DNA of 45,909 nucleotides from Acidobacteriota bacterium (GTDB lineage Bacteria; Acidobacteriota; Blastocatellia; Chloracidobacteriales; Chloracidobacteriaceae): the NCBI GenBank assembly GCA_016208495.1, contig JACQXX010000006.1, positions 1 through 45,909 of the forward strand. Reading direction: 5' to 3'. Below the pieces are notes generated by a model that ran no database searches, was not told the origin of the DNA, and saw only the letters and a list, made by a program, of their open reading frames with translations. The translations under genes were made by a program, and so were the position numbers. Shown here one piece after another: positions 6,713-23,859 of the stretch (the stretch's first letter is position 1; the number at the start of each line of letters is the position of its first letter).

Positions 6713-6740
6713 TTCATACTTCATACTTCATACTTCATAC
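6713..6740. repeat. heptamer tandem array, TTCATAC x4
   Basis: Four perfect consecutive copies of the 7-bp unit TTCATAC lie just behind the kinase gene. It is one of several period-7 arrays in this window, each with a different unit. Confidence 0.9.
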
Positions 6741-7185
6741 TTCCAATAAATTGTGCTCGCATTGAGGGCTATTTCCGTGTATAACCAGGATGGTTGAGGG
6801 TGCCCCACGAAGATTGTTTCCTTTCATCCTCGTCATGGATCTTCTCCCGGCACCCCATTTAGTTCCTGGCACTGAAACACGATGTTTCTTTCGGGTAAAT
6901 TTTTTCGGGAGAAACTATTGCCAGTTTGGACTTCATGGCGTTTAATGACGTGTTGCGTCACCGCCCTTGACCAACGTGACGTAACTCGACCTTCCTCCTC
7001 GCCTTTCGGCAATCGAGTTTTCCCTGATAACAATACAATCGGTTTACCGTGATGGTCATTGTACCCGACGGGACGGTACTTGCTTATCCCCAGGCTGCCT
7101 GTACCAGCGTGTGATGGAAGGCACGGCGCTCCACAAGTAGCCACTCACCGACGTGTGCGCTTCATACCGCACAGGAGTTTCTCTT
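6741..7185. other. gap with no recognised gene
   Basis: Apart from the hairpin and TTCATAC array at its left end, the roughly 500 bp between the kinase and the PPC-like gene contain only ORFs without domain signals or ribosome sites. A minus-strand ORF at 6833-7144 has a composition unlike the neighbouring proteins. A short inverted pair, CGTCAC/GTGACG, lies near 6955-6982. An SD, AGGAG near 7171, belongs to the next gene. Confidence 0.5.
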
Positions 7186-8276: not shown

Positions 8277-8368
8277 TTTGTCAGTCGGTCATCTTGTCAG
8301 GGTTTGGGGTTCAGGGCCAGATTTTGTCAGTCGGTCATCTTGTCAGGGTTTGGGGTTCAGGGCCAGAT
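8277..8368. repeat. 46-bp direct tandem duplication
   Basis: Two identical 46-bp copies (8277-8322 and 8323-8368) each contain TTGTCAGTCGGTCATCTTG and GGGTTTGGGGTTCAGGG. They lie in the 395-bp gap between the hypothetical gene and mgtE. The rest of the gap (to 8633) holds a short ACCCTGA repeat near 8444-8460, the reverse complement of the GGGTTCA unit seen in the suf operon. It contains no convincing gene. Confidence 0.85.
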
Positions 8369-8633
8369 ACTCCACGTTGAGTGGTACCCGTCAGTTCCCC
8401 AGTCTTCATCTTGAGTGGGATCAGTCAACTCATCGCCGAAACCCTGAACCCTGAACCCGATTTCAGTGGGATTTTATTTTCTTCTGGGTCCCCAAGGTGC
8501 AGTTTTGGGGAAACTCGTATGAGCTTTCTCAAAAAACGAAATTCCAGGTCACTCCTGTTCTTTCACTGGGTTGAGGGCGGCATTTTTCTCACGGTGAGTA
8601 CCAGTGAGTCAGACCCGCTTCGAACCTAAATCC

Positions 8634-13662: not shown

Positions 13663-14616
13663 ATGAACGACAGTGTTTGGCTAGAAAATTTGCATAAATC
13701 ATTTGTTTTGGCAAAAGGGTGGGCTTTTCGCCGAACGTACACCGAGATCCTGGCCGTTGATCACATCAGCCTTGCCGTTCCGGAAGGCCAATCAGTGGCG
13801 TTTATCGGCCCGAATGGCGCTGGAAAATCAACCACCATCAAGATGTTGACCGGAATTTTGCGTCCCACTTCAGGAACCGCCCGGGTGTTGGGAGTTGTTC
13901 CCTGGGAACAGCGCCGAACGCTGGCCTTTCAGATTGGCGTGGTTTTTGGGCAGCGATCCCAGCTCTGGTATCACCTGCCCCCCTCGCACACGCTTGACCT
14001 GCTCGCCAAAATTTACAACCTGACGCCGACTGAGTATCAGGCCCGCCGAACCATGCTGATAGACCGGTTTGGACTGGGTCCATTTTTAGACACTCCGGTT
14101 CGAAAGCTGTCACTTGGCCAGCGGATGCGGGCCGAGGTCGCCGCCAGTTTATTGCATCAACCAAAAGTCCTGTTCCTTGACGAGCCTACGATTGGCCTCG
14201 ATGTCATTGCACGACAGGAGTTGCGGGATGTCATTCGCGAATGGAACCAAAAAGAAGGCGTCACCGTGTTTCTCACCAGTCACGATGCTGGAGATATCGA
14301 ACAGGTCGCCAAACGGGTCATTATCATCAACCATGGGCGGGTTGTGCTCGACGACAAAGTATCAAGCATGCGCCGTCAGTACCTGGGGGCCAAAATCCTC
14401 GATGTGAAATACCATGAGCCTCCACAACCTTTTTCATTGCCTGGGGTTACCAAGTTAAAGAGCAGCGGGTACGCGCTCAAACTGGAAATTGACACCCAAC
14501 TCATTTCGATTGAGCAGGTCATGAATGAAGTTCTCAAAGCCGGATCGGTGGCTGACATTGCCATTGAAGATCCCCCGCTTGAAGAGGTCATTGCCCATAT
14601 CTACAACCAGAAATGA
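13663..14616 (+). CDS. ABC-2 type exporter ATPase (COG4586-like)
   Basis: This 317-residue ABC ATPase has Walker A GPNGAGKST near residue 49, a Q-loop region, signature LSLGQRMRAE near 149, Walker B VLFLDEP near 170, a D-loop (TIGLD) and an H-loop His in TSHD. The C-terminal extension of about 80 residues fits the COG4586 group, which is encoded with two six-helix permeases. Both follow here on the same strand. ATG 13663 is preferred: CAGGA lies upstream, and MNDSVWLENLHKSF begins the domain; an in-frame ATG at 13576 adds 29 unrelated residues. It should energise export or flipping of an unidentified substrate across the inner membrane. Confidence 0.9.
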   Translation: MNDSVWLENLHKSFVLAKGWAFRRTYTEILAVDHISLAVPEGQSVAFIGPNGAGKSTTIKMLTGILRPTSGTARVLGVVPWEQRRTLAFQIGVVFGQRSQLWYHLPPSHTLDLLAKIYNLTPTEYQARRTMLIDRFGLGPFLDTPVRKLSLGQRMRAEVAASLLHQPKVLFLDEPTIGLDVIARQELRDVIREWNQKEGVTVFLTSHDAGDIEQVAKRVIIINHGRVVLDDKVSSMRRQYLGAKILDVKYHEPPQPFSLPGVTKLKSSGYALKLEIDTQLISIEQVMNEVLKAGSVADIAIEDPPLEEVIAHIYNQK

Positions 14617-14618
14617 CC

Positions 14619-14697
14619 GAATGAAGAAGGTCTTTAGTGGTTAGTGGTTAGTGGTTAGTGGTTAGTGGTTAGAAATCCCTACTTTCCAGGAAGACCT
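14619..14697. repeat. TTAGTGG element, half copy, after ABC ATPase stop
   Basis: It begins with GAATGAAGAA at 14619-14628, two bases after the stop codon. Five perfect TTAGTGG heptamers follow at 14634-14668, plus a partial unit. Next is TTAGAAATC...TACTTTCCAGGAAGACC, a reverse-complement-like match to the core GGTTCTTGGAAGGTATTGAT of the copies near 21305 and 22820. No matching right arm is seen, so this copy seems incomplete. Confidence 0.75.
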
Positions 14698-14833
14698 GAG
14701 AATCAACAACCAATCATTTGTGCGAGTTACCCGAATTTTGCCTAAAATAACCCAACGACCACCGTCAGCCAAATCGGGACACAAATTACAGGCGGCAATC
14801 TCCCAGGATATTGAGTAGAATTGACTTCCAGCC

Positions 14834-14869
14834 TGTCCTTTATGTCTTTTATGTCCTTGATGTCCTTTT
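14834..14869. repeat. nonamer tandem array, TGTCCTTTA-type x4
   Basis: Four 9-bp units follow each other: TGTCCTTTA, TGTCTTTTA, TGTCCTTGA, TGTCCTTTT. They lie in the 322-bp gap between the ABC ATPase and the first permease. The remaining gap sequence holds no gene that I can support. Confidence 0.8.
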
Positions 14870-14938
14870 CTTAGTCGGATCAACCACATCAGAGACCAAC
14901 CCAGGCAAGCGGTCAGTATTTTGAGCAAATTTGAGGGA

Positions 14939-15754
14939 ATGAAGAACTTTGAGACCCCGAACCCCAAAATGAAATACCTCTGGATTGCTTTTACCTCTAT
15001 CCGATCAAATCTGGCTTACCTCACTGAAGTGGCGGCTCGCGTCATTTTTTTAGGGGTGATTTTGTATATCTTTTTACAGCTCTGGAAACTGACATTCTCA
15101 GAAACCCGCGCCCAGCAACTTGGCGGCTTTACACTGGCCCAAATGCTCTGGTATCTGGCAATTACAGAATCAATTATTCTCTCCAGCCCACGTGTTTCGA
15201 CTGAGGTTGATGAGGATGTGCGGACCGGAGCGCTAGCCGTTCAGTTAATCCGCCCACTGTCGTATCCGCTGTACCGGCTGTTTTCAACGCTTGGGGAACG
15301 CACGGTTCGCTTTTTCCTCAATGCGACGGTCGCCACCCTGATTTCCTTGGTTTTTGTCGGACCGATTTCAATCAGCCTTTCAGGGTTGGCAATGTTTGCC
15401 GTTTCGATTCCCCTGGCATTTGTGCTCGATTTTTTGGGGATGTTTCTGATTGGCCTTGGTGCTTTCTGGCTGGAGGATACTGGCGGCCTGACACTGATTT
15501 ATTCGCGGATCACCATGATTTTAGGCGGGTTGTTGATCCCGATTGAACTCTTTCCAGATGCCATCCAGCCAATTGTTCGGATCTTACCCTTCGCGAGTAT
15601 GGTCTATGGCCCCGCACACATGTTTGTGGCACCAGGCTGGTCACAGTTGATTGACCTGATCATCAAACAATCACTTGGTATCGCGGTCCTGGGCACTATC
15701 GTCTCTTTTGTGTATCGGCTTGCCCTGAAACGGATTTCCGCCCACGGCGGGTAA
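14939..15754 (+). CDS. ABC-2 type permease (COG4587-like)
   Basis: About 271 residues, with six hydrophobic segments and little periplasmic material, as in COG4587 permeases that pair with COG4586 ATPases. The typical N-terminal helix is ARVIFLGVILYIFLQLWK. Later features include LAVQLIRPLSYPLYRLFSTLGER, the coupling-helix type region preceding the membrane core. The start is uncertain. TTG 14921, ATG 14939 and ATG 14969 are all in frame; 14969 (MKYLWIAF) best matches the usual family N-terminus, but none has a well-spaced ribosome site. The gene sits between the ATPase and the second permease, with which it should form a heterodimeric membrane channel. Substrate unknown. Confidence 0.85.
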   Translation: MKNFETPNPKMKYLWIAFTSIRSNLAYLTEVAARVIFLGVILYIFLQLWKLTFSETRAQQLGGFTLAQMLWYLAITESIILSSPRVSTEVDEDVRTGALAVQLIRPLSYPLYRLFSTLGERTVRFFLNATVATLISLVFVGPISISLSGLAMFAVSIPLAFVLDFLGMFLIGLGAFWLEDTGGLTLIYSRITMILGGLLIPIELFPDAIQPIVRILPFASMVYGPAHMFVAPGWSQLIDLIIKQSLGIAVLGTIVSFVYRLALKRISAHGG

Positions 15755-15820
15755 CGCCGGACAACAGTTAAACAACTGAAAAAGTTAGTTTTTTCTAATC
15801 CTTGAACCATCATTGGATTT

Positions 15821-16618
15821 ATGATTTCGTCACTTACTGGTTTTCTTTGGCTCGCAGTCGCCTACCTGAAGTTTAATCTCAGAGCCCAACTGGCCTACCG
15901 TGGCGCCTTTATCTCACAAGTCGTGGCTATGTTTTTGAACGACATTGTGTGGGTGACCTTCTGGTGGTTGTTCTTTACCCGATTTCCAGTCCTGCGGGGC
16001 TGGGATGTCAAAGACGTCATTACCGTCTGGGCGATTGCGGCTGCGGGGTTTGGAATTTCACATGGCATCTGTGGCAATGCGTTTTCGCTTTCATCGCTGA
16101 TTGTCCAGGGTCAACTTGATGTCTGGATGCTGTATCCGCGTGCGTTGCTCCCCCATCTCTTATTGGGACGCACCAATGCCACAGCCTGGGGCGATGCACT
16201 GTTTGGGTATGTCATTTATCTGGCGATAGTCCGACCAGATCCAGTTCATTTCCTGCTCTTCTTCCTGTTGAGTATTTCGGCGGCCATGGTTTTTCTCGGA
16301 TTTAACATTCTGGTTGGAAGCCTCGCCTTTTTCCTTGGAAACTCAGAAGGGTTGGCTGAACAGTTGCGCTTCTCGTTAATCACCTTCAGTACCTACCCGT
16401 CAGTTATTTTTGAAGGGCCGGTCAAAGTCATTTTGTTTACCGCCATTCCAGCCATGTTTATCAATAACCTGCCCATCACTGCCTTGCGGGAGCTTTCCCT
16501 TTTTCATGCGGCTCTTTCATTTTTGGGAGGCGTGCTGGCGGTGGGGATTGGTGGATCAGTTTTTTATTATGGCCTGCGCCGGTACGAATCAGGGAATTTG
16601 ATGAATATGCGTGGCTAA
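15821..16618 (+). CDS. ABC-2 type permease (COG3694-like)
   Basis: The 265-residue protein has six predicted membrane helices. It carries the conserved stretch VQGQLDVWMLYPRALLPHLLLGR, close to the GQLD-x-x-L-x-x-P block of COG3694 permeases. It completes a three-gene exporter with the ATPase at 13663 and the permease at 14939. The gene starts 66 bp after the first permease stop, with no clear ribosome site. The last residues (LRRYESGN) resemble the usual cytoplasmic tail. These systems are often called daunorubicin-type or uncharacterised exporters. No neighbouring gene here indicates the cargo. Confidence 0.87.
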   Translation: MISSLTGFLWLAVAYLKFNLRAQLAYRGAFISQVVAMFLNDIVWVTFWWLFFTRFPVLRGWDVKDVITVWAIAAAGFGISHGICGNAFSLSSLIVQGQLDVWMLYPRALLPHLLLGRTNATAWGDALFGYVIYLAIVRPDPVHFLLFFLLSISAAMVFLGFNILVGSLAFFLGNSEGLAEQLRFSLITFSTYPSVIFEGPVKVILFTAIPAMFINNLPITALRELSLFHAALSFLGGVLAVGIGGSVFYYGLRRYESGNLMNMRG

Positions 16619-16632
16619 CTGAGCTGAATGGA

Positions 16633-16749
16633 GAATGGAGAATGAAGAAACCAGTGAATGGTTAGTGGTTAGCTTTTGGTTCTTGGTTCTTGGTCGAAAG
16701 TCTTGATCTCTAATCACTAACCACTAACCACCTTCTTCATTCTCCATTC
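16633..16749. repeat. nested palindromic TTAGTGG element, after permease gene
   Basis: A perfect 17-bp outer inverted repeat starts with GAATGGAGAATGAAGAA (16633-16649) and ends with its complement (16733-16749). An inner perfect 13-bp repeat is GGTTAGTGGTTAG (16660-16672) with CTAACCACTAACC (16717-16729). The middle contains GGTTCTT repeats and a GATCTCTAA version of the shared core. It starts 14 bases after the permease stop codon. It could fold into a long hairpin and act as a 3'-end or terminator-like element. Confidence 0.85.
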
Positions 16750-16876
16750 TTCGTCATTCGCCCTTTGTATTCGGTCATTCAGCACGTCTTTGGTGCGTTT
16801 CTGAAAGATTCAAGGCTATAATTCGGCATCCACTCAACCACCGATTGAATTCCTTACCATTTCAGGAACGCCGTCT

Positions 16877-18430
16877 ATGCGAAAAGCTATTTTGCTGACT
16901 CTGTTGATCTTTGCTGGAACTTTATTTCTTATTTCCTATTCCAAACCCTGGCTGCAAAGAACGGTTGCTGCCCAATCAAAGCAAAAAGTCCCCACGTTTA
17001 ATAAAGAAATTGTTCGTATTTTTCAGAAAAACTGTCAGGTCTGTCATCACCCGAACTACATTGCTCCATTCTCACTGATGACCTATGACGAGGCAAAACC
17101 CTGGGCACAGGCAATCAAAGCCGAAACCCAGGCCAAACGCATGCCTCCCTGGAAAGCAGCATCTGGTTGTGGAAGTTTTAATGATGAGCGGGTTCTCTCA
17201 GCCGAAGATATTGACCTGATTGCGCGCTGGGCCGATGCTGGCGCCCCAGAGGGAAAAGCGAAACATCTTCCGCCACCAGTCAACTTTTCGTCCGACTGGT
17301 TACTCGGCAAACCGGAGCTTGAACTGGCTTCCCCAGAAGCTTTTTCGATTCCAGCTTCAGGCGATGATATTTATCAATGCTTTGTATTACCACACAAGTT
17401 TGATCAGGAAGCCTTCTTGACCGCCTCAGAAATCCTGCCGGATGCGGCTGAAGTCGTGCATCACGTGTTGCTGTTTGTTGATACTTCAGGAGAGGCTGAA
17501 CGCCTGGATGCTGACGACCCGGCCCCTGGATACACTTCATTTGGTGGTCCGGGATTCATCCCAGCGGCACTGCTGGGTGGGTGGGCACCAGGTAACTTTC
17601 CTCGATTTACACCCAAAGGAATCGGCGTCAAGATTCCGAAAAACTCGCGCATCGTGATGCAGGTGCATTACCACCCCAATGGTACCGCCTTTACCGACCG
17701 GACCCGGTTGGGGCTGCATTTTGCCAAAGAGCCGGTTGAAACTGAGCTTCAGGTACTGCCAGTCGTCAATCCATTCTTCAAGATTCCAGCCGGCGCCCCC
17801 AGCCACGAAGTCAAAGCCGTCATGACGGTTCCGTTTTTCTGGAACATCAAAGTTTTGGGAATTACGCCCCACATGCATTTGCTGGGAAAAAGCATTCAGG
17901 TCGAAGCCAGACTCCCTGGTGGTGAAAAAATTTGTCTGGTGAATATTCCCACCTGGGATTTCCGCTGGCAGGGCACTTATGCCTTCAAGGAACCAATCAC
18001 GCTTCCTGGCGGCACGATTATTACGGCAACCGCCATCTATGACAATTCAATGGCCAACCCGCTGAACCCAAACAATCCACCAAAGCAGGTTGAATGGGGC
18101 GAACAGACCACTGATGAAATGTGCCTCGTTTTTATGAATTATGTGTCTGCCTGGACAGACAAATCACCAAATCAGAAAGCCAGATACCAGGAAGTTGACC
18201 CGATTCAGGCCATGATTGCCGACCAGCCTCCAATCAAAATGGGCGGTGTGGACATTATGCAGCAGGCCAAATTGAAAATGGCATCCAGCCTTCTGTTTAG
18301 TTCACCGGTTGAAATGTACAACTGGGCTGATGCCTTCCGCCCAGAAGTGTCGAAGTCCAAAACCCTTCCCTGGCAGAAATATTTTGGGAAAGACGGTGCG
18401 GTTTCCAAAAAACCTGCCTGCTGTCATTGA
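16877..18430 (+). CDS. exported cytochrome c / type II copper monooxygenase (PHM-like) fusion
   Basis: This 517-residue protein has an N-terminal signal or anchor sequence. It is followed by a cytochrome c-type heme site CQVCH (C53, C56, H57) in a small domain to about residue 125. The rest matches copper type II ascorbate-dependent monooxygenases (dopamine beta-hydroxylase / PHM fold). Copper ligands are visible: VHHVLLFV (H195, H196), QVHYHPN (H264, H266) with neighbouring PHMHLLG (H332, H334), and the Met ligand candidate in DEMCLVF (M415). Such enzymes hydroxylate C-H bonds with O2. The fused heme could deliver the electrons that ascorbate supplies in animals; that is inference. CAGGAA lies 9 bases before ATG 16877. 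It is followed by a strong terminator. Confidence 0.85.
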   Translation: MRKAILLTLLIFAGTLFLISYSKPWLQRTVAAQSKQKVPTFNKEIVRIFQKNCQVCHHPNYIAPFSLMTYDEAKPWAQAIKAETQAKRMPPWKAASGCGSFNDERVLSAEDIDLIARWADAGAPEGKAKHLPPPVNFSSDWLLGKPELELASPEAFSIPASGDDIYQCFVLPHKFDQEAFLTASEILPDAAEVVHHVLLFVDTSGEAERLDADDPAPGYTSFGGPGFIPAALLGGWAPGNFPRFTPKGIGVKIPKNSRIVMQVHYHPNGTAFTDRTRLGLHFAKEPVETELQVLPVVNPFFKIPAGAPSHEVKAVMTVPFFWNIKVLGITPHMHLLGKSIQVEARLPGGEKICLVNIPTWDFRWQGTYAFKEPITLPGGTIITATAIYDNSMANPLNPNNPPKQVEWGEQTTDEMCLVFMNYVSAWTDKSPNQKARYQEVDPIQAMIADQPPIKMGGVDIMQQAKLKMASSLLFSSPVEMYNWADAFRPEVSKSKTLPWQKYFGKDGAVSKKPACCH

Positions 18431-18458
18431 TTATTTGAACAAAAAATCCCTGTAAGAA

Positions 18459-18500
18459 CCAAAAACGGCAGGTCAAATGACCTGCCGTTTTTTGGTTTTT
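18459..18500. terminator. strong bidirectional rho-independent terminator
   Basis: CCAAAAACGGCAGGTCA (18459-18475) pairs with TGACCTGCCGTTTTTTGG (18478-18495), with a tight loop and one bulged T. T-tracts follow on the plus strand and, as complements of the A-run, on the minus strand. It separates two convergent genes. Confidence 0.9.
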
Positions 18501-18520
18501 TCTTGATCTCAAATCTTTTA

Positions 18521-19000
18521 TTAATTGGTATTGCTCGCGTCTTCCTGCTGGCCTAAATATTCCAGATACAGGGATTTTGCAGATTCTTCATCGTTGATCG
18601 TTTCCGGACCATAAACGCGATATTCACGTCCTTCACCTGCTGCATTGACAATATACACCCAGCCATTGCCATTACGGAAATACATGGTTGTGTAATCTTC
18701 CCCATTGACTTTCTTGACATAATCAAGCCTGGACGTTGCAGAGGAACTGGTATCCACCAGCTTATGTTTCTCAATCACTCCATTCAGGGGAAAATCATCT
18801 CCACTGATTTTTACGAGAAATTCATTATTTTCTGGTGAACCGACCTGTACCGCAACAACCTGAATACCATTTTCACCATAAAACAATTTGATATTCTTCC
18901 CGTATTTTTGCCGATTCTGGCTCAACGCCACGGTCGTCGCACAGCACACAATTAACAACAACAGGGCGAAAGATTTAATTTTTGAAGAAACTTCGAACAT
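18521..19000 (-). CDS. small secreted protein, unknown function
   Basis: ATG 19000 is chosen because TTGGAGG lies 9 bases upstream and the N-terminus MFEVSSKIKSFALLLLIVCCATTVALSQ is a good signal peptide. An upstream in-frame start at 19048 adds 16 residues. The mature part (about 130 residues) has beta-rich segments (KLFYGENGIQVVAVQVG, YTTMYFRNGNGWVYIVNAAGEGREYRVYG) and an acidic tail. I recognise no family. The protein is presumably periplasmic or extracellular. It is convergent with the monooxygenase gene and shares the terminator at 18459-18500. Confidence 0.75.
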   Translation of the reverse strand: MFEVSSKIKSFALLLLIVCCATTVALSQNRQKYGKNIKLFYGENGIQVVAVQVGSPENNEFLVKISGDDFPLNGVIEKHKLVDTSSSATSRLDYVKKVNGEDYTTMYFRNGNGWVYIVNAAGEGREYRVYGPETINDEESAKSLYLEYLGQQEDASNTN

Positions 19001-19315
19001 TGAGACAAACCTCCAAGTGAAATGAGTAATGTTTATTGAACGATACACACTTCAGAACAACTCGCGTGCCAGAGTTCAAGTCAATTGTCCACTATAATCC
19101 AAAAAAACAATAACCCTTTTCAAATCAAGCTTTACCTCAATAAAAAAAGAGATTGCCTTCTTATTTTTCAGAATTTACACAGAAACGAATTTATCTTCCT
19201 TTGATATATCCTTCCAAATTAAATTAAATTGATTTTTTCTATTATTGGCACGCTTCATCTTCCTGAGGCGGATGACTTCCGGCGCTTGAATGGCCTCCCT
19301 ATGGGATAACCTCAC

Positions 19316-19358
19316 AAAAAAAGGCTGTATGGAATGTACCCAATCATTCCATACAGCC
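19316..19358 (-). terminator. rho-independent terminator of the suf operon
   Basis: On the minus strand, a 14-bp perfect stem (GGCTGTATGGAATG and its complement, at 19323-19358) with an 8-base loop is followed by seven T residues. It lies 64 bases beyond the sufU stop. Smaller inverted repeats lie between it and sufU (CTGGCTT/AAGCCAG near 19393-19410; TGCCTCA/TGAGGCA near 19419-19438, the latter spanning the sufU stop). The rest of the gap 19001-19422 shows no gene. Confidence 0.9.
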
Positions 19359-19422
19359 CACTTGCTTGTACGAGACGAACACCGTTGTAAAGGCTGGCTT
19401 CTGCAAGCCAGGCTCCAATGCC

Positions 19423-19875
19423 TCATTCGGTTGAGGCAGATCCTTTTTGCTCTAAAGCCGAGTGCATCGCGTGCCAGGGAAGGCTGGCACATTTGACCCG
19501 CACCGGAAAATGACTGACGTTTGAAAAAATCGCCAGCCGCCCCAGATGATGCGCTTCAGAATTCACATTCAGCTCGCCTTTGACCATTTTGTGAAATTCG
19601 TGAAACAGCACTTCGGCTTCGTCTTTGGGTTTTCCCTTAATAAAAGCCGTCATCATCGAGGCTGAGGCTTTGCAAATCGCACATCCCACGCCCGTGAAAG
19701 TAATTTCCTTGATCACCGGTCCATCCAGGTTGATAAAGACGGTTATCTGATCACCACAGAGCGGGTTGTGCCCTTCGCACATGCACGTCGGGTTTTCAAG
19801 CGTCTTAAAGTTTCTGGGATTCTTGTTGTGATCGAGAATGACCTGCTGGTACAACTCGCTGTTGTAACTCGACAT
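19423..19875 (-). CDS. sufU: SufU-type sulfur transfer protein
   Basis: The 150-residue protein matches SufU, the zinc-dependent sulfurtransferase that accepts persulfide sulfur from SufS. Zinc/active-site residues are present: C40 and D42 (NPLCGD), C65 (GVGCAICKASASMM) and C129 (RVKCASLPWHAM). The insertion between the second and third motifs that distinguishes SufU from IscU scaffolds is also present. Its ATG follows the sufS stop with no gap (TAAATG), so the two are likely translationally coupled and made in matched amounts, as expected for partners. It is the last gene of the operon, before the terminator at 19316-19358. Confidence 0.93.
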   Translation of the reverse strand: MSSYNSELYQQVILDHNKNPRNFKTLENPTCMCEGHNPLCGDQITVFINLDGPVIKEITFTGVGCAICKASASMMTAFIKGKPKDEAEVLFHEFHKMVKGELNVNSEAHHLGRLAIFSNVSHFPVRVKCASLPWHAMHSALEQKGSASTE

Positions 19876-21135
19876 TTAGCTAAATACCTCTATCGTTTTC
19901 AGAATCGCTTTGGCCAGTTCATCAATTTCCTCTCGGGTATTGTAGAAAGAAAACGAAGCCCGAGCCGTGGCGGGGACGCCAAACCGTTTCATCACCGGCT
20001 GGGCGCAATGGTGACCGGCACGAATGGCAACCCCTTCCTGATCAAGGAAATGGCCAATATCGTGTGGATGAACGCCATCTAAAATAAAGGAAATAATCGC
20101 CGCCTTGTGGGCCGCTGTCCCAATTATCTTCACCTGTGGAATCGCTGATAGCACCTGGGTGCCATATTCCAACAATTCGTGTTCATATGCCTGAATCCGA
20201 TCCAGGCCAATTCCAGTCAGATAGTCAATCGCTGTCCCCAGACCGATGACTTCGGCAATCGCAGGGGTGCCAGCTTCAAACTTATGTGGAATCGGAGCAT
20301 ACGTCGTTTTTTCAAACGTGACCGATTCGATCATATCGCCGCCACCCAGGAACGGATTCATCTTTTCGAGCAGGTCGGCCTTGCCATACAAAATCCCAAT
20401 GCCCGTCGGACCAACCGCTTTATGGCCTGAAAATGCATAAAAGTCACAGTCCAGGTCCTGAACATCAACCTTCATATGCGGCGCCGCCTGAGCGCCATCC
20501 ACCAGGAATGGAATATTTTTGGCGTGGGCCAGTTCGATCATGTGTTTGATCGGGTGAATCGTCCCAAGCGCATTGGAAACATGCCCGACACATACCATTC
20601 GGGTGCAGTCAGTCAGCAGTTTTTCATATTCTTCCAGGATCAAGTCACCCTGGTCATTGACCGGGATCACCCGCAGCGTCGCCCCTTTTTCAGCACAAAT
20701 CATTTGCCAGGGCACAATGTTGGCGTGGTGTTCGGTGGCCGAAACCAGAACTTCGTCACCGGCTGAAATAAATTTCGCCCCATATCCACGGGCCACCAGA
20801 TTGATCGCCTCGGTTGTGCCACGTGTGTAGATAATCTGCCGGGTTGCTGGAGCGTTTAAAAACCGGGCGGCCACTTCGCGCGTGTGTTCATAGGCAATAG
20901 TGGCTTTTTCAGAGAGTTTATGGATGCTGCGCCGCACAGTCGCATATTCTTCCGAATAATACCGGCTGATGCGGTCAATCACGACGTGCGGTTTCTGGCT
21001 CGTGGCGGCATTGTCCAGATAGACCAGCGGTTTCCCATTCACCTGCTGTCTGAGCATTGGAAAATCAGCCCGAATGTGTTCGACATTGAACGTAGGCGGT
21101 TCAGCCACCGCCAAAGAATTTTGTGCAACTGCCAT
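19876..21135 (-). CDS. sufS: SufS cysteine desulfurase
   Basis: This PLP-dependent enzyme takes sulfur from L-cysteine for Fe-S cluster assembly. The 419-residue product has the PLP lysine K239 in FSGHKAVGPTG, ATEHHANIVPW upstream (conserved His that stacks on PLP), and the persulfide-forming Cys C377 in RAGHHCAQP, typical of group II (SufS) enzymes. The start is ATG 21135 (MAVAQN), with GGAG 10 bases upstream. An in-frame start at 21201 would use codons from the repeat in the sufD-sufS gap. It is followed immediately by sufU. The sufD-sufS gap (260 bp) is unusually long for this operon and is filled by palindromic repeats. Confidence 0.95.
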   Translation of the reverse strand: MAVAQNSLAVAEPPTFNVEHIRADFPMLRQQVNGKPLVYLDNAATSQKPHVVIDRISRYYSEEYATVRRSIHKLSEKATIAYEHTREVAARFLNAPATRQIIYTRGTTEAINLVARGYGAKFISAGDEVLVSATEHHANIVPWQMICAEKGATLRVIPVNDQGDLILEEYEKLLTDCTRMVCVGHVSNALGTIHPIKHMIELAHAKNIPFLVDGAQAAPHMKVDVQDLDCDFYAFSGHKAVGPTGIGILYGKADLLEKMNPFLGGGDMIESVTFEKTTYAPIPHKFEAGTPAIAEVIGLGTAIDYLTGIGLDRIQAYEHELLEYGTQVLSAIPQVKIIGTAAHKAAIISFILDGVHPHDIGHFLDQEGVAIRAGHHCAQPVMKRFGVPATARASFSFYNTREEIDELAKAILKTIEVFS

Positions 21136-21164
21136 ATCACTTTTTCTCCAAAAGTCTTTCTGAG

Positions 21165-21381
21165 TTAGTGATGAGTGGCTAGTGGTTAGTGGTAATGACA
21201 ACTCACATTGTTTCAGTCGCCTCAGGTAATCCTTTGAAAAATCAGATGAAAGCTCAAAATCATCAAAACAACCTGAGTTGTCATTACAGCTAGTGGCTAG
21301 TGGCTGGTTCTTGGAAGGTATTGATTTCTAACCACTAATCACTAATCACTAATCACTAATCACTAGAGGGGTTCTTCATTC
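21165..21381. repeat. TTAGTGG-type palindromic element between sufD and sufS
   Basis: Seen from the minus strand, it starts with GAATGAAGAACC (complement of 21370-21381), 14 bases behind the sufD stop. CACTAATCACTAATC-type heptamer arrays (21331-21364) and CTAGTGG/TTAGTGG arrays (21172-21192 and 21289-21304) form the two arms. They surround the core GGTTCTTGGAAGGTATTGAT at 21306-21325. The left-hand arm is interrupted by a different palindrome at 21192-21287. The first codons of an apparent longer sufS reading frame come from this element. Confidence 0.8.
21192..21287. mobile_element. 96-bp palindromic element inserted in a TTAGTGG array (MITE-like)
   Basis: GTAATGACAACTCA (21192-21205) is the perfect reverse complement of TGAGTTGTCATTAC (21274-21287), and pairing partly continues inward. 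The element carries no ORF. Heptamers of the surrounding array (AGTGGTTAGTG before, CTAGTGGCTAGTGG after) continue on both sides, which looks like an insertion into the array. No target duplication can be defined inside a repeat. Confidence 0.6.
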
Positions 21382-21395
21382 TTCAGTAATGGTTC

Positions 21396-22739
21396 TTAAC
21401 CACGTCCGGCAATGCGGGTTGAAATGGCCCGGCCCAGTCCCGATTTGATGGATTCAATTTTGATTCGATCCACAACTTCCTGGGCAAAAGCAAAAGTCAG
21501 CATGGTTCGGGCCTGTTCCAGTGGAAGCCCGCGGCTGAGCAAATAGAAAATTTCGTCTTTGTTGAGCTGACCGACGGTGGCACCGTGGCTGCATTTGACG
21601 TCATCGGCAAAAATTTCAAGTTGCGGTTTGGTGTCAACGCGGGCGCTGGTTGAAAGCAGCAAATTCTTATTGGTCTGGTTGGCGTTTGTTCCCTGGGCAT
21701 CGGTTCGGACCCAAACTTTCCCATCAAACACGCCGCGTGCCTTATCGTCCAGCATTCCTTTGTAGAGAATCTGGCTGGTGCAGTTCGGATGGGCGTGATC
21801 AACCGATAAATGCACGTCTGCCAGTTGTTTCCCGCTCACGTAATACAACCCTTGCAAGGCACACTCACCACCAGGCGCCGTAAACGCGACATCAATCTGG
21901 TTGCGGGAAATCTGACCACCGAGCGCAAAAGAATACCCGTTCAACACCGCCGCCTGCTGGATGCGAACCCTGGTGTTGGCAATATGATAGGCGTTCAGGC
22001 TTTCTTTCTGGACTTTGTAATGCTCCAGGATGGCACCATCCTCAAGCACAATTTCGGTGACGGCATTGGTCAGGTATGGACGGTCGCCAAACCGGCCTGA
22101 TTCATCATCGAGCGCCAGGTAGTTTTCAACCACCGTCGCGATACTGGCTTGCTCAGCAACGATGAGCACCCGTGGGAACGTCGCCTGAAAATCAGCCGCG
22201 TGATCTGAGACAAAAAACAAATTGATTGGTGTCTCAACCACTTTGCCTCGGGGAATATAAATCACCACGGCCTCACCCATCAGGGCGGCATTGAGCGCGG
22301 TAAACCCATTCCGATCTGGAACAACCACCTGCCCGAAGTATTTTTGCACCACTTCCGGGTGTGTCTCACAGACGTCAGCCAGCAGCCCCACCACACATCC
22401 GGCTGGGAGAGATGGAAACGCCGAGAGTTCGTGGTTTAACCGGCCATTGAGAAATACCAGTCGGCTGGATTCAGCTTCAGGATAAAACGGGATGAGCTTT
22501 GAAACGGCTTCAACATGTCCGGCAACACCAGGAGTAAATGCCTGTTTGGTAACTGGTGCGATATTGGTGTATTTCCACTCTTCATCCCGAATGGTCGGAA
22601 ACCCAATCCGTTCAAAAGCCGCCACACCCGCCGCACGCAAATCAACCAGCCATTGTGGTGACGTGCCGGCTTCAGCTTTTGACACTGCTTCAAAAATGCT
22701 TTGATACAAATGTTTTTGTTTTGATGGTTCAGGAGTCAT
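21396..22739 (-). CDS. sufD: SufD Fe-S assembly scaffold component
   Basis: The 447-residue protein has the SufD/SufB-type beta-helix core. It shows the SufD pattern RDEEWKYTN near the N-terminus (residues 50-60), LVFLNGRL, and the C-terminal block DDVKCSHGATVGQLNKDEIFYLLSRGL with conserved Cys and His. SufD forms the SufBC2D complex that assembles [4Fe-4S] clusters. ATG 22739 (MTPEPSK) is chosen, with AAGGGA just upstream; an in-frame start at 22772 lies in repeat-derived sequence. Both flanks contain palindromic repeats, so this gene is separated by about 150 bp from sufC and 260 bp from sufS. Confidence 0.93.
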   Translation of the reverse strand: MTPEPSKQKHLYQSIFEAVSKAEAGTSPQWLVDLRAAGVAAFERIGFPTIRDEEWKYTNIAPVTKQAFTPGVAGHVEAVSKLIPFYPEAESSRLVFLNGRLNHELSAFPSLPAGCVVGLLADVCETHPEVVQKYFGQVVVPDRNGFTALNAALMGEAVVIYIPRGKVVETPINLFFVSDHAADFQATFPRVLIVAEQASIATVVENYLALDDESGRFGDRPYLTNAVTEIVLEDGAILEHYKVQKESLNAYHIANTRVRIQQAAVLNGYSFALGGQISRNQIDVAFTAPGGECALQGLYYVSGKQLADVHLSVDHAHPNCTSQILYKGMLDDKARGVFDGKVWVRTDAQGTNANQTNKNLLLSTSARVDTKPQLEIFADDVKCSHGATVGQLNKDEIFYLLSRGLPLEQARTMLTFAFAQEVVDRIKIESIKSGLGRAISTRIAGRG

Positions 22740-22756
22740 AAATCCCTTTTGAATCA

Positions 22757-22888
22757 AGAATGAAGAAACCAATTTTAGTGATTAGTGGTTAGTGGTTAGT
22801 GGTTAGTGGTTAGTTCTCGGTTCTTGGAAGGTATTGATTTCTAACCACTAACCACTAATCACTTTAATCACTCTCAATTCTTCATTCT
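22757..22888. repeat. nested palindromic TTAGTGG element between sufC and sufD
   Basis: Outer arms AGAATGAAGAA (22757-22767) and TTCTTCATTCT (22878-22888) are perfectly complementary; the right arm overlaps the sufC stop codon. Inside are TTAGTGG heptamers (about 22783-22813) facing CTAACCACTAACCACTAATC (22841-22860), around the core GGTTCTTGGAAGGTATTGAT. It fills almost the whole sufC-sufD gap. Confidence 0.88.
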
Positions 22889-23657
22889 ATTTCGCGGCCT
22901 GACGGAATTCTTTTTCTTCTTCCTTAATCCAGTCATAGCCTTTGGCTTCGAGTTCGAGCGCCAGTTCTTTTCCGCCGGATTTCACAATTCGGCCCTGGTA
23001 CAGCACGTGCACAAAATCAGGCGTGATGTAGTTGAGCAACCGCTGATAGTGCGTCACCAGGATAATACCGTTGTCATCTGTGTGGAGTTTGTTGACTCCA
23101 TTGGAGATAATCCGCAGGGCATCAATGTCGAGGCCAGAATCCGTTTCATCCAAAATGGCCAGTTTGGGTTCTAAAACCGCCATTTGCAGAATCTCGTTGC
23201 GTTTCTTTTCACCGCCGGAGAAGCCTTCGTTGACGGATCGGTTGATAAACGATTTGTCCATTTCAATGACTTTCAGCTTTTCCTGGAGCAAATCGTCAAA
23301 TTCCAACGGGTCAAGCTCTTCTTCGCCGTGGTGTTTGCGAATCTGGTTATAAGCCAGTCGCAGGAACGTGGCATTGCTCACACCTGGAAGTTCAATCGGG
23401 TACTGAAACGCCAGGAAGATGCCTTCGCGAGCCCGTTCATCAGGCGCCAGTTCGAGCAAATTTGTGCCTTTGAACACGATTTCGCCTTCGGTCACGACAT
23501 AACTTGGATGACCGGCCAGAACCTTGGACAACGTGCTTTTGCCTGAGCCGTTTGGGCCCATAATTGCGTGGATTTCACCAGGCTTCACCGTCAAATTGAT
23601 TCCACGCAGAATCTCGATGTCGTTGACGGTGGCATGCAGATTTCGAATTTCTAACAC
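22887..23657 (-). CDS. sufC: SufC ATPase of the Fe-S assembly complex
   Basis: The 256-residue cytosolic ABC-type ATPase has Walker A GPNGSGKS (34-41), ABC signature FSGGE with the SufC-typical [10 protein letters not shown] continuation (146-158), and Walker [13 protein letters not shown] near 167-178. It powers conformational change in SufBC2D; it is not a membrane exporter. The start is GTG 23657, with GAGGAAATT in front. A GGGTTCA heptamer array lies between it and sufB, about 20 bp upstream of its start. The stop codon is embedded in the arm of the next palindromic repeat. Confidence 0.95.
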
Positions 23658-23675
23658 AATTTCCTCACCTGTATA

Positions 23676-23703
23676 GGGTTCAGGGTTCAGGGTTCAGGGT
23701 TCA
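23676..23703. repeat. heptamer tandem array, GGGTTCA x4
   Basis: Four perfect 7-bp units with a partial fifth sit in the 202-bp sufB-sufC gap, upstream of the sufC ribosome site. Related ACCCTGA copies (reverse complement) are at about 8444-8460. The rest of the gap contains no gene. Confidence 0.9.
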
Positions 23704-23859
23704 GGGTTTGAAAAAACGACTTGTGCCTTGTTCCTGGCTTCCCGCCACCTGATTTGTACTTATTGAAATTGGTCACGCTCATCAGCCGGCAGTGAAGTCA
23801 TTCTAAGAAATCAAAGTATCGAACAACTGACCACTGACGACTGACGATTGACTCATTGA

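Follow-up and report, generated by a model that had tools for sequence, protein, structure and literature searches.

What are the nested, palindromic TTAGTGG elements that lie close behind stop codons in a 45,909-nucleotide stretch of DNA (hereafter the window) from an Acidobacteriota bacterium of the family Chloracidobacteriaceae? The window is contig 6 of a genome of 8.38 Mb in 177 contigs (G000). As a first reading made from the letters alone (the sequence-only reading) had described, four such elements begin at positions 14619, 16626, 21165 and 22758. In a full copy, a GAATGAAGAA-like end is followed inward by TTAGTGG heptamers, in some copies also by GGTTCTT heptamers, and then by the core, beyond which come complementary versions of the heptamers and of the end. 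On balance, we lean towards reading the elements as one family, of about 200 copies with a 21-nt core, within a larger class of intergenic heptanucleotide arrays that often stand in convergent pairs, are dispersed as units and are maintained by 7-nt slippage. Our samples demonstrate a bias to period 7, many families with a common polarity, placement at stop codons, length changes mostly in steps of 7 nt, no detectable covariation between the arms, and, in a genome from another genus of the same family (G001), pairs of this type built largely from other units.

The elements belong to a family dispersed through the genome. A genome-wide search with the core consensus TTCTTCGAAAGTATTGATTTC (21 nt, at most 3 mismatches) returned 103+93 places in G000 and 0+0 for the reversed control. 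The same core gave 0 matches across nine other genomes of the family, and one or two chance matches in 6 of 38 relatives, all of them from other families, while the reversed control matched once in each of two relatives. The array motif TTAGTGGTTAGTGGTTAG (at most 2 mismatches) had 602+614 matches genome-wide, compared with 12+17 for its reversed control. The sequence-only reading had proposed GGTTCTTGGAAGGTATTGAT as the core; a core is indeed shared genome-wide, but GGTTCTTGGAAGGTATTGAT itself is only a variant of the consensus, from which the four window cores lie 2–4 bases off. Its suggestion of a dispersed family sharing both core and ends was borne out by the genome search, with 31 of 78 copies carrying both ends.

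TTAGTGG is one among about ten heptamer families in this genome. For the array analysis we used a 1.05 Mb sample of G000, made up of stretches of contigs C1–C24 and not drawn at random, from which one 5,000-base run of N was excluded; genes were called with a simple open reading frame caller, whose stops are exact and starts approximate. Perfect tandem arrays numbered 328 at period 7, 71 at period 8 and 16 at period 9, with at most 8 each at periods 5, 6, 10 and 11. A third-order Markov sequence of the same size, simulated once, contained 0 period-7 arrays against the 328 real ones. Period-7 families include CAGGGTT, TTAGTGG, CAGTAGT, CGGGGTT, GAATGAA, CCGGGTT, GGGATGA and AGCGAGT, among others. 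The sample holds 247 array islands, only 4 of which lie inside called genes. Contigs without a listed TTAGTGG match carried 36 arrays in 155 kb, none of them of the TTAGTGG family (233 per Mb vs. 367 per Mb on the other contigs). The period-8 arrays (mostly AAGGTGAC and ACAGGGTG) and the period-9 arrays (AAAAGGACG type) form further, smaller families.

Placement was assessed in co-directional gaps of up to 1,500 nt, a set covering 173 of the 247 islands and 23 of 36 core elements. The other core elements fall in convergent gaps (6), in a divergent gap (4, one tandem cluster at C4:36914-37091), inside called genes (2) or beyond the gap limit (1). The proposed location behind stop codons held up: the upstream stop is no more than 40 nt away from 17 of the 23 core elements, compared with 9.1 expected for random positions in the gap (0 of 5,000 simulations), and from 85 of the 173 islands, compared with 37.8 expected. 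The stop codon of a called gene falls inside 12 arrays, in 11 distinct genes. On the start side, 34 islands lie within 40 nt where 37.8 would be expected, neither an enrichment nor a clear depletion. Divergent gaps are occupied about half as often (16/82) as co-directional gaps (69/196 and 69/174) or convergent gaps (29/75).

On average, the G-rich strand of an array points from the gene edge into the gap; that TTAGTGG is one of many heptamer families sharing such a polarity had been missed by the sequence-only reading. We define the G strand as the strand with more G than C or, in ties, with more A than T. Successive arrays within a gap run G-then-C (+-) in 69 cases, C-then-G (-+) in 2 and in the same orientation in 77, and neighbours of different families follow the same order (+- 43, -+ 2). 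On the contigs without a listed TTAGTGG match, neighbouring arrays were ++ in 6 cases, +- in 2, -- in 3 and -+ in 0. Among the 98 arrays of co-directional gaps that lie no more than 50 nt from a stop codon, 90 have the G strand on the coding strand and 8 on the non-coding one; of the 57 arrays at most 50 nt from a start codon, 56 have it on the non-coding strand, and four arrays near both a stop and a start enter both figures. Gaps holding a single array obey the polarity as well, with mean relative positions of 0.26 (G) and 0.69 (C) (p=2e-7). The direction is the same in all of the ten largest families; for some the arrays are few, and none was tested singly. The polarity also holds in convergent gaps (0.18 vs. 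0.70, p=1e-5) and is weakest in divergent gaps (0.45 vs. 0.70, 12 arrays each, p=0.02); single arrays within convergent or divergent gaps alone gave no significant difference (p=0.09 and 0.10). Because convergent gaps contain no start codons and the polarity nevertheless holds there, its cause cannot be the avoidance of false ribosome-binding sites.

A separate, unexplained observation concerns the inner ends of arrays (3' of the G strand), where a TTCGAA palindrome occurs at 78 of 363 ends, compared with 12 at outer ends. It accompanies many arrays of the CAGGGTT, CGGGGTT, CCGGGTT, TTAGTGG and GGTTCTT families (for example at C3:81218, at C4:34173 and in the window core) and some AGGGTT arrays in G001, and was found at 0 of 40 CAGTAGT and 0 of 12 AAGCCCC ends.

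How uniform are the TTAGTGG copies themselves? A right-arm filter reduced 82 candidates to 78 copies, a set that leans to intact cores because 40 extra loci were chosen among perfect core matches. All 78 were used for arm tallies; dropping entries from tandem clusters left 72 for the arm-pairing test (6 entries from two clusters) and 74 for the register test (4 entries). A TTAGTGG-type unit stands on the left in 48 copies and a CCACTAA-type unit on the right in 72, with the outer left end present in 42 and the outer right end in 52. Relative to the core, one 7-nt register accounts for 40 of 46 left TTAGTGG units, 28 of 38 outer left AATGAAGAA ends and 38 of 46 outer right TTCTTCATTC ends; copy length thus varies mostly by whole heptamers. 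A TTAGTGG-type unit is absent from the left 98 nt in 28 of 74 copies, and many copies have lost or swapped their left arm. In one divergent gap (C4:36837-37140) the core unit stands four times in tandem, at a period of 59 nt, and at locus L254 it is doubled.

If pairing were under selection, or if one arm were copied from the other, the two arms of a copy should match each other best. A maintained pairing between the nested arms was not seen: the local-alignment score of the left arm against the reverse complement of the right is 20.7 within copies and 20.6 between them, and the double-centred z is 0.25, a value reached in 7,804 of 20,000 permutations, although the power of this test is limited because arms differ little between copies. 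Arm numbers were likewise uncorrelated (Spearman 0.06, p=0.60), as they were for 32 pairs in G001 (0.21, p=0.24). Among 10 variant patterns tested singly, TTGGTGG and AATGGAG reached a nominal p of 0.03 each, uncorrected. Single striking cases, namely the GTGGTGA/GTGGTTG alternation at C20:8175 and GAATGGA on both sides of the second window element, did not generalise.

We then asked whether the class extends to relatives. G001 contains 358 period-7 arrays per Mb (in 165 kb), mostly of other units such as GGACTGA and GAATTGA, with CAGGGTT common to both genomes. In a 0.52 Mb polarity sample, successive arrays are +- in 32 and -+ in 1 case within families, and +- in 14 and -+ in 3 between families. 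The G strand is coding in 38 of 41 arrays near stops (non-coding in 3) and non-coding in 27 of 28 arrays near starts, and single arrays lie at relative positions of 0.28 and 0.68 (p=2e-4). Arrays inside called genes number 14 of 170. Convergent gaps show the highest occupancy (19/41), compared with 34/118 and 23/67 for the others and 8/51 for divergent gaps, and in 17 of 26 gaps with one +- pair the arrays lie within 31 nt of both gene edges. Among relatives sampled at 47–100 kb each, four genomes of the class have 152, 60, 56 and 10 period-7 arrays per Mb, while G011 and G003, the latter from the same family, have 0. Two integron integrase matches over cut-off were also seen in G001 (G001:C92:1514-2455 and C116:1576-2506), the second apparently continuing in another frame.

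The DNA between the arms behaves differently in the two genomes. In G000, 21 of 29 pair centres have a match elsewhere in the sample (outer-flank control, 6/29), whereas in G001, 23 of 33 same-family pairs have a centre without a match elsewhere in the 0.52 Mb (outer-flank control, 32/33 without), bearing in mind that a sample half as large lowers the chance of a match. This contrast suggests that some families spread as whole units, while in others mainly the arms recur. Orthologous G000 and G001 gaps available from the samples number only 10 (arrays in both 2, in G000 only 2, in G001 only 1, in neither 5), too few for a conclusion even with the suf gaps added.

With the class defined, the four window elements can be described in turn. 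Element 1 (14619–14692, - strand) is the half copy that it had been taken for: an outer GAATGAAGAA (14619–14628) and a TTAGTGG array (14634–14672, 5.6 units) lead to a degenerate core on the - strand (14672–14692) with 4 mismatches to the consensus, and the partner arm is missing. Its fold is hardly better than that of dinucleotide-shuffled sequence (z=-0.9), whereas the other three fold strongly against the same shuffles, again as described. Element 2 (16626–16752, + strand; z=-8.5) has an outer GAATGGA/GAATGAA end (16626–16649), TTAGTGG units (16660–16672), a GGTTCTT array (16676–16694), the core (16690–16710), a right arm (16711–16731) and the other outer end (16732–16752). Element 3 (21165–21385, + strand; z=-5.6), between the sufD stop and the sufS start, has a left arm in two parts (21165–21192 and 21289–21307), the core (21308–21328), a right arm (21329–21365) and an outer end at about 21371–21385. 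Between the two parts of the left arm stands a separate inverted repeat, TAATGACAACTCA ... TGAGTTGTCATTA (21193–21286), whose end motif has no further copy in the 1.05 Mb sample; locus L226 has a related stretch. Element 4 (22758–22887, + strand; z=-11.1) comprises an outer GAATGAAGAA (22758–22767), a TTAGTGG array (22775–22814), the core (22821–22841), a right arm (22842–22864) and an outer TTCTTCATTC end running to 22887.

The coordinates confirm that each of the four overlaps a stop codon or comes within some 15 nt of one. Element 1 lies 2 nt behind a stop ending at 14616 and element 2 lies 7 nt behind one ending at 16618; these belong to an ABC ATPase-like gene and to the second gene after it. 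Element 3 is about 10 nt from the SufD stop (21396–21398, - strand) and element 4 overlaps the SufC stop (22887–22889), both within a sufB-C-D-S-U operon. In a profile search, SufB, SufC, SufD, SufS and SufU each scored above the cut-off of their own model. The ABC ATPase-like protein had no model above cut-off among the matches listed, and the two genes after it, which had no match at E≤1e-10, we take for its permeases. Arrays of other families also occur in the window: AGGGTTC in the sufB-sufC gap (23675–23708, + strand), AACCCTG (8440–8458, - strand) and TTCATAC (6713–6743, - strand). A perfect two-copy 46-nt tandem repeat with TTTGTCAGTCGGTCATCTTGTCAGGGTT (8277–8368) adjoins an AGGGATG-type array. 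An Rfam search of positions 14400–23100 gave 9 matches at E≤1, all far under the gathering score, and hence no known structured RNA. Elsewhere in the genome sample there is a second dispersed element of about 190–260 bp with inverted ends GCCAGTTAAGAGTTGAA (16 end motifs in 1.05 Mb), which resembles a miniature inverted-repeat transposable element (MITE). Examples lie at C3:9527-9782, C15:4223-4475, C18:16267-16527 and C19:156980-157231, and several directly adjoin heptamer arrays.

The suf operon allowed one gap to be compared across species. Of 80 loci, 32 were examined, and 28 of these have a SufC-like gene before sufD. The SufC-SufD gap has a median of 14 nt in the 28 loci and is at most 29 nt in 20, compared with 147 nt in G000 and 4–5 nt in L146–L148, the loci next most similar by SufD. 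The unit in G000 is therefore probably added DNA. The gap also exceeds 40 nt in 8 of the 28 loci, including that of Blastocatellia bacterium SSF51 (JAIBAN010000075, L145). There, 67 nt of the sufC-sufD gap match G001 once at 100%, with no second match of this query, taken around the gap centre, in G001; SSF51 is probably G001 or close to it, judging from this identity. Its 125-nt sufC-sufD gap has GAATTGA heptamers that overlap the sufC stop, then a 56-nt centre, and lastly CTCAATT heptamers that stop 5 nt short of sufD; this stretch probably represents added DNA. The gaps of the SSF51 suf operon (L145:4939-7452) hold inverted elements of three kinds: AGGGTTC with CCCTAAA, GAATTGA with CTCAATT, and, by eye, an 11-nt CTCTGCGCCTA type.

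Could the elements act as RNA? We think it rather unlikely that they are hairpins selected as RNA in the manner of bacterial interspersed mosaic elements (BIME), in which the G-rich 5' arm would fold onto the C-rich 3' arm and protect the upstream mRNA, lower downstream expression or end transcription. The strong folds of three of the four window copies and the closeness of elements to stops fit this proposal, as do the SSF51 gaps, where sufB-C and sufC-D have convergent heptamer arrays and sufD-S, by eye, a different type of inverted repeat. In G001 the highest occupancy is that of convergent gaps, as it would be if they held terminators, and the polarity, G-rich first and C/U-rich last, would suit a hairpin followed by a weak RNA-DNA hybrid. 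However, arms match each other no better within a copy than between copies, more than a third of copies (the 28 of 74 above) lack a TTAGTGG-type unit on the left, and convergent gaps in G000 are not more occupied than co-directional ones. A rough detector of our own found no significant link, positive or negative, between arrays and terminator-like hairpins (Fisher p=0.40, 0.78 and 0.55), and no sign that arrays substitute for intrinsic terminators. That about 200 matches to one core occur in many different gaps would also be expected of REP-like (repetitive extragenic palindromic) or MITE-like transposable elements moved by a Y1 (RAYT) or DDE transposase, a reading that we regard as unlikely. 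In REP/BIME systems, element copies flank a Y1 transposase gene and pairing is maintained between the arms. G000 does have 9 Y1_Tnp matches (L091–L099), but in about 28.5 kb these loci hold a single array, of another family, where the density of the sample predicts about 10. RAYT-driven REP membership was therefore rejected; the sequence-only reading had likened the elements to REP/BIME. Direct repeats of at least 6 at array ends, sought within 8 nt of them, were found in 0 of 31 pairs (0.6 expected) in G000 and 2 of 33 (0.5 expected) in G001, a weak test for target-site duplication because the true ends of TTAGTGG elements lie further out. Most G001 pair centres, moreover, are without a match. 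Inverted matches in array flanks do exceed the control (mean 4.6 vs. 3.3 in G000 and 4.1 vs. 3.4 in G001); on visual inspection, most of them are outer arms or remnants of arrays.

The common polarity raises a different possibility, a telomere-like origin, which we consider very unlikely: at breaks near gene ends, some activity would extend the 3' ends with G-rich heptamers before they were joined, making each gap a head-to-head fusion of two capped ends. In a stricter and equally improbable form, an enzyme of the lineage would fix the unit length of 7 and the strand but not the sequence, and gaps would be fused caps around unique DNA. Such an origin would account for the polarity shared by neighbours of unrelated families, for its persistence in single arrays, for the independent lengths of the two sides, and for the G001 pairs that lie close to both gene edges around centres largely unmatched in the sample. 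Against it, the TTAGTGG and CAGTAGT families share cores and so spread as units, and a lone array might be what is left of a worn palindrome. A last possibility is that the elements are like integron attC sites, the recombination sites behind cassette stop codons; they form inverted pairs that have variable centres and lie near stop codons, and G001 has the two integrase matches noted above. We nevertheless hold this to be most improbable: the best integrase match in G000 reaches 78.5 bits against a cut-off of 265 despite hundreds of elements, for which reason integron membership was rejected for this genome, and some elements lie inside the suf operon. The arms of attC sites are not known to be tandem arrays.

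The reading that we favour, dispersal by unit with maintenance by slippage, would work as follows. A unit, consisting of arms plus core or of arms plus other DNA, would enter an intergenic gap by some route; replication slippage in 7-nt steps would from then on make its arrays longer, shorter and more uniform, and the centre would meanwhile drift; and selection would clear copies from genes and divergent gaps, tolerating those just behind a stop codon. No individual copy would need a function, and any effects on transcript ends would be side effects. Evidence for turnover comes from the core itself, with 196 matches in G000 vs. 0 in the nine other genomes of the family, and from G001, which is rich in arrays of mostly other units. 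The period-7 bias, the register with the core, the independent arms, the placement behind stops, the rarity in genes and divergent gaps, the probable added DNA in the suf gap and the like placement of the Xanthomonas repeats also speak for this reading. Several points weigh against this account. Slippage by itself accounts neither for dispersal over hundreds of places nor for a polarity common to unrelated families, and no dispersal vehicle was found in the enzyme searches, which covered Y1 and integron integrase, no search for a DDE parent having been made. The unmatched centres of G001 suggest that arms recur there rather than whole units. Start sides are not depleted, although avoidance by selection would predict it. 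The eight long SufC-SufD gaps indicate that long gaps also arise otherwise. The array motif TTAGTGGTTAGTGGTTAG is not private to G000, since the same-family genome G002 has 23+37 matches (control 0+1), with none in the other eight genomes of the family. Finally, the Xanthomonas repeats described in the relevant passages of Rehm 2015 (PMC4692102) lie mostly between the same genes in two species, a greater stability than free spread suggests.

Why bacterial tandem repeats so often use 7-nt units is left unsettled by the parts of the literature that bear on it. In G000 and G001 the unit length, the polarity and the position at gene edges are constant; what changes is the unit sequence, from family to family and, for the most part, from genus to genus. 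This pattern separates the fixed features from the free ones and makes models of slippage, selection and end-addition testable by comparing strains. If RNA action were the true explanation, every transcript would carry the G-rich arm first and the C/U-rich arm last. If telomere-like capping were, the like rule in Xanthomonas and Nostoc would imply a process that crosses phyla.

How do these elements compare with known systems? Dispersed intergenic palindromes are familiar from REP/BIME and REPIN, and here too they lie near stop codons; unlike those, the present elements have period-7 arms of variable length and no association with Y1 transposase loci. Among the results listed by searches of the open-access literature there was no paper on heptamer repeats in Acidobacteriota, which is weak evidence of absence. 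Fixed unit length with varying sequence has been described for tandem repeats in Bacillus, in the portion of that report concerned with them (Subirana and Messeguer 2021, PMC8161180), but the units there are of 52 or 20–21 nt, compared with 7 nt and inverted pairs here. The TAACTGA repeats of marine Beggiatoaceae are also intergenic heptamer direct repeats, 13 sets of which overlap the upstream stop codon; as far as the passages on them go (MacGregor 2015, PMC4679880), they differ in lying mostly just upstream of start codons, in having one unit, and in including one indirect repeat vs. 169 direct sets. Several heptanucleotide families per genome, as here, are likewise a trait of cyanobacterial repeats (STRR), and three heptanucleotides in Calothrix are mentioned in Rehm 2015.

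The closest counterpart is provided by the repeats of that study, GGGAATC in Xanthomonas and GGGGA(C/T)T in Nostoc, which are intergenic with a 7-nt unit. In the passages that describe them, they lie 0–50 nt behind stops with the G strand coding, and have it on the non-coding strand before starts; in Xanthomonas the mean distance is 28 nt to the 5' open reading frame and 160 nt to the downstream one. Convergent inverted pairs are reported for Xanthomonas (70 and 75 cases) and few for Nostoc, with few repeats between divergent reading frames. Quadruplex formation was studied, and the text states that a role could not be identified; the idea of 7-nt slippage appears both there and in MacGregor 2015. 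G000 resembles this pattern in its over-represented 7-nt unit, intergenic location behind stops with G coding there, convergent pairs and rarity in divergent gaps. It differs in having about ten unit sequences at once, a conserved core in some families, and units that differ between genera of one family. TTAGTGG, with only GG, also lacks the GGG tract of a three-tetrad quadruplex, which CAGGGTT and CGGGGTT have. GGG tracts are a feature of the repeats in Rehm 2015 and not of heptamer repeats in general, and since TTAGTGG shows the same placement without one, quadruplex formation is weakened as a general reason for it. We therefore file the G000 elements under intergenic heptanucleotide repeats, to which they add many families at once, conserved cores in some of them, and a unit sequence that is free under a fixed length and polarity.

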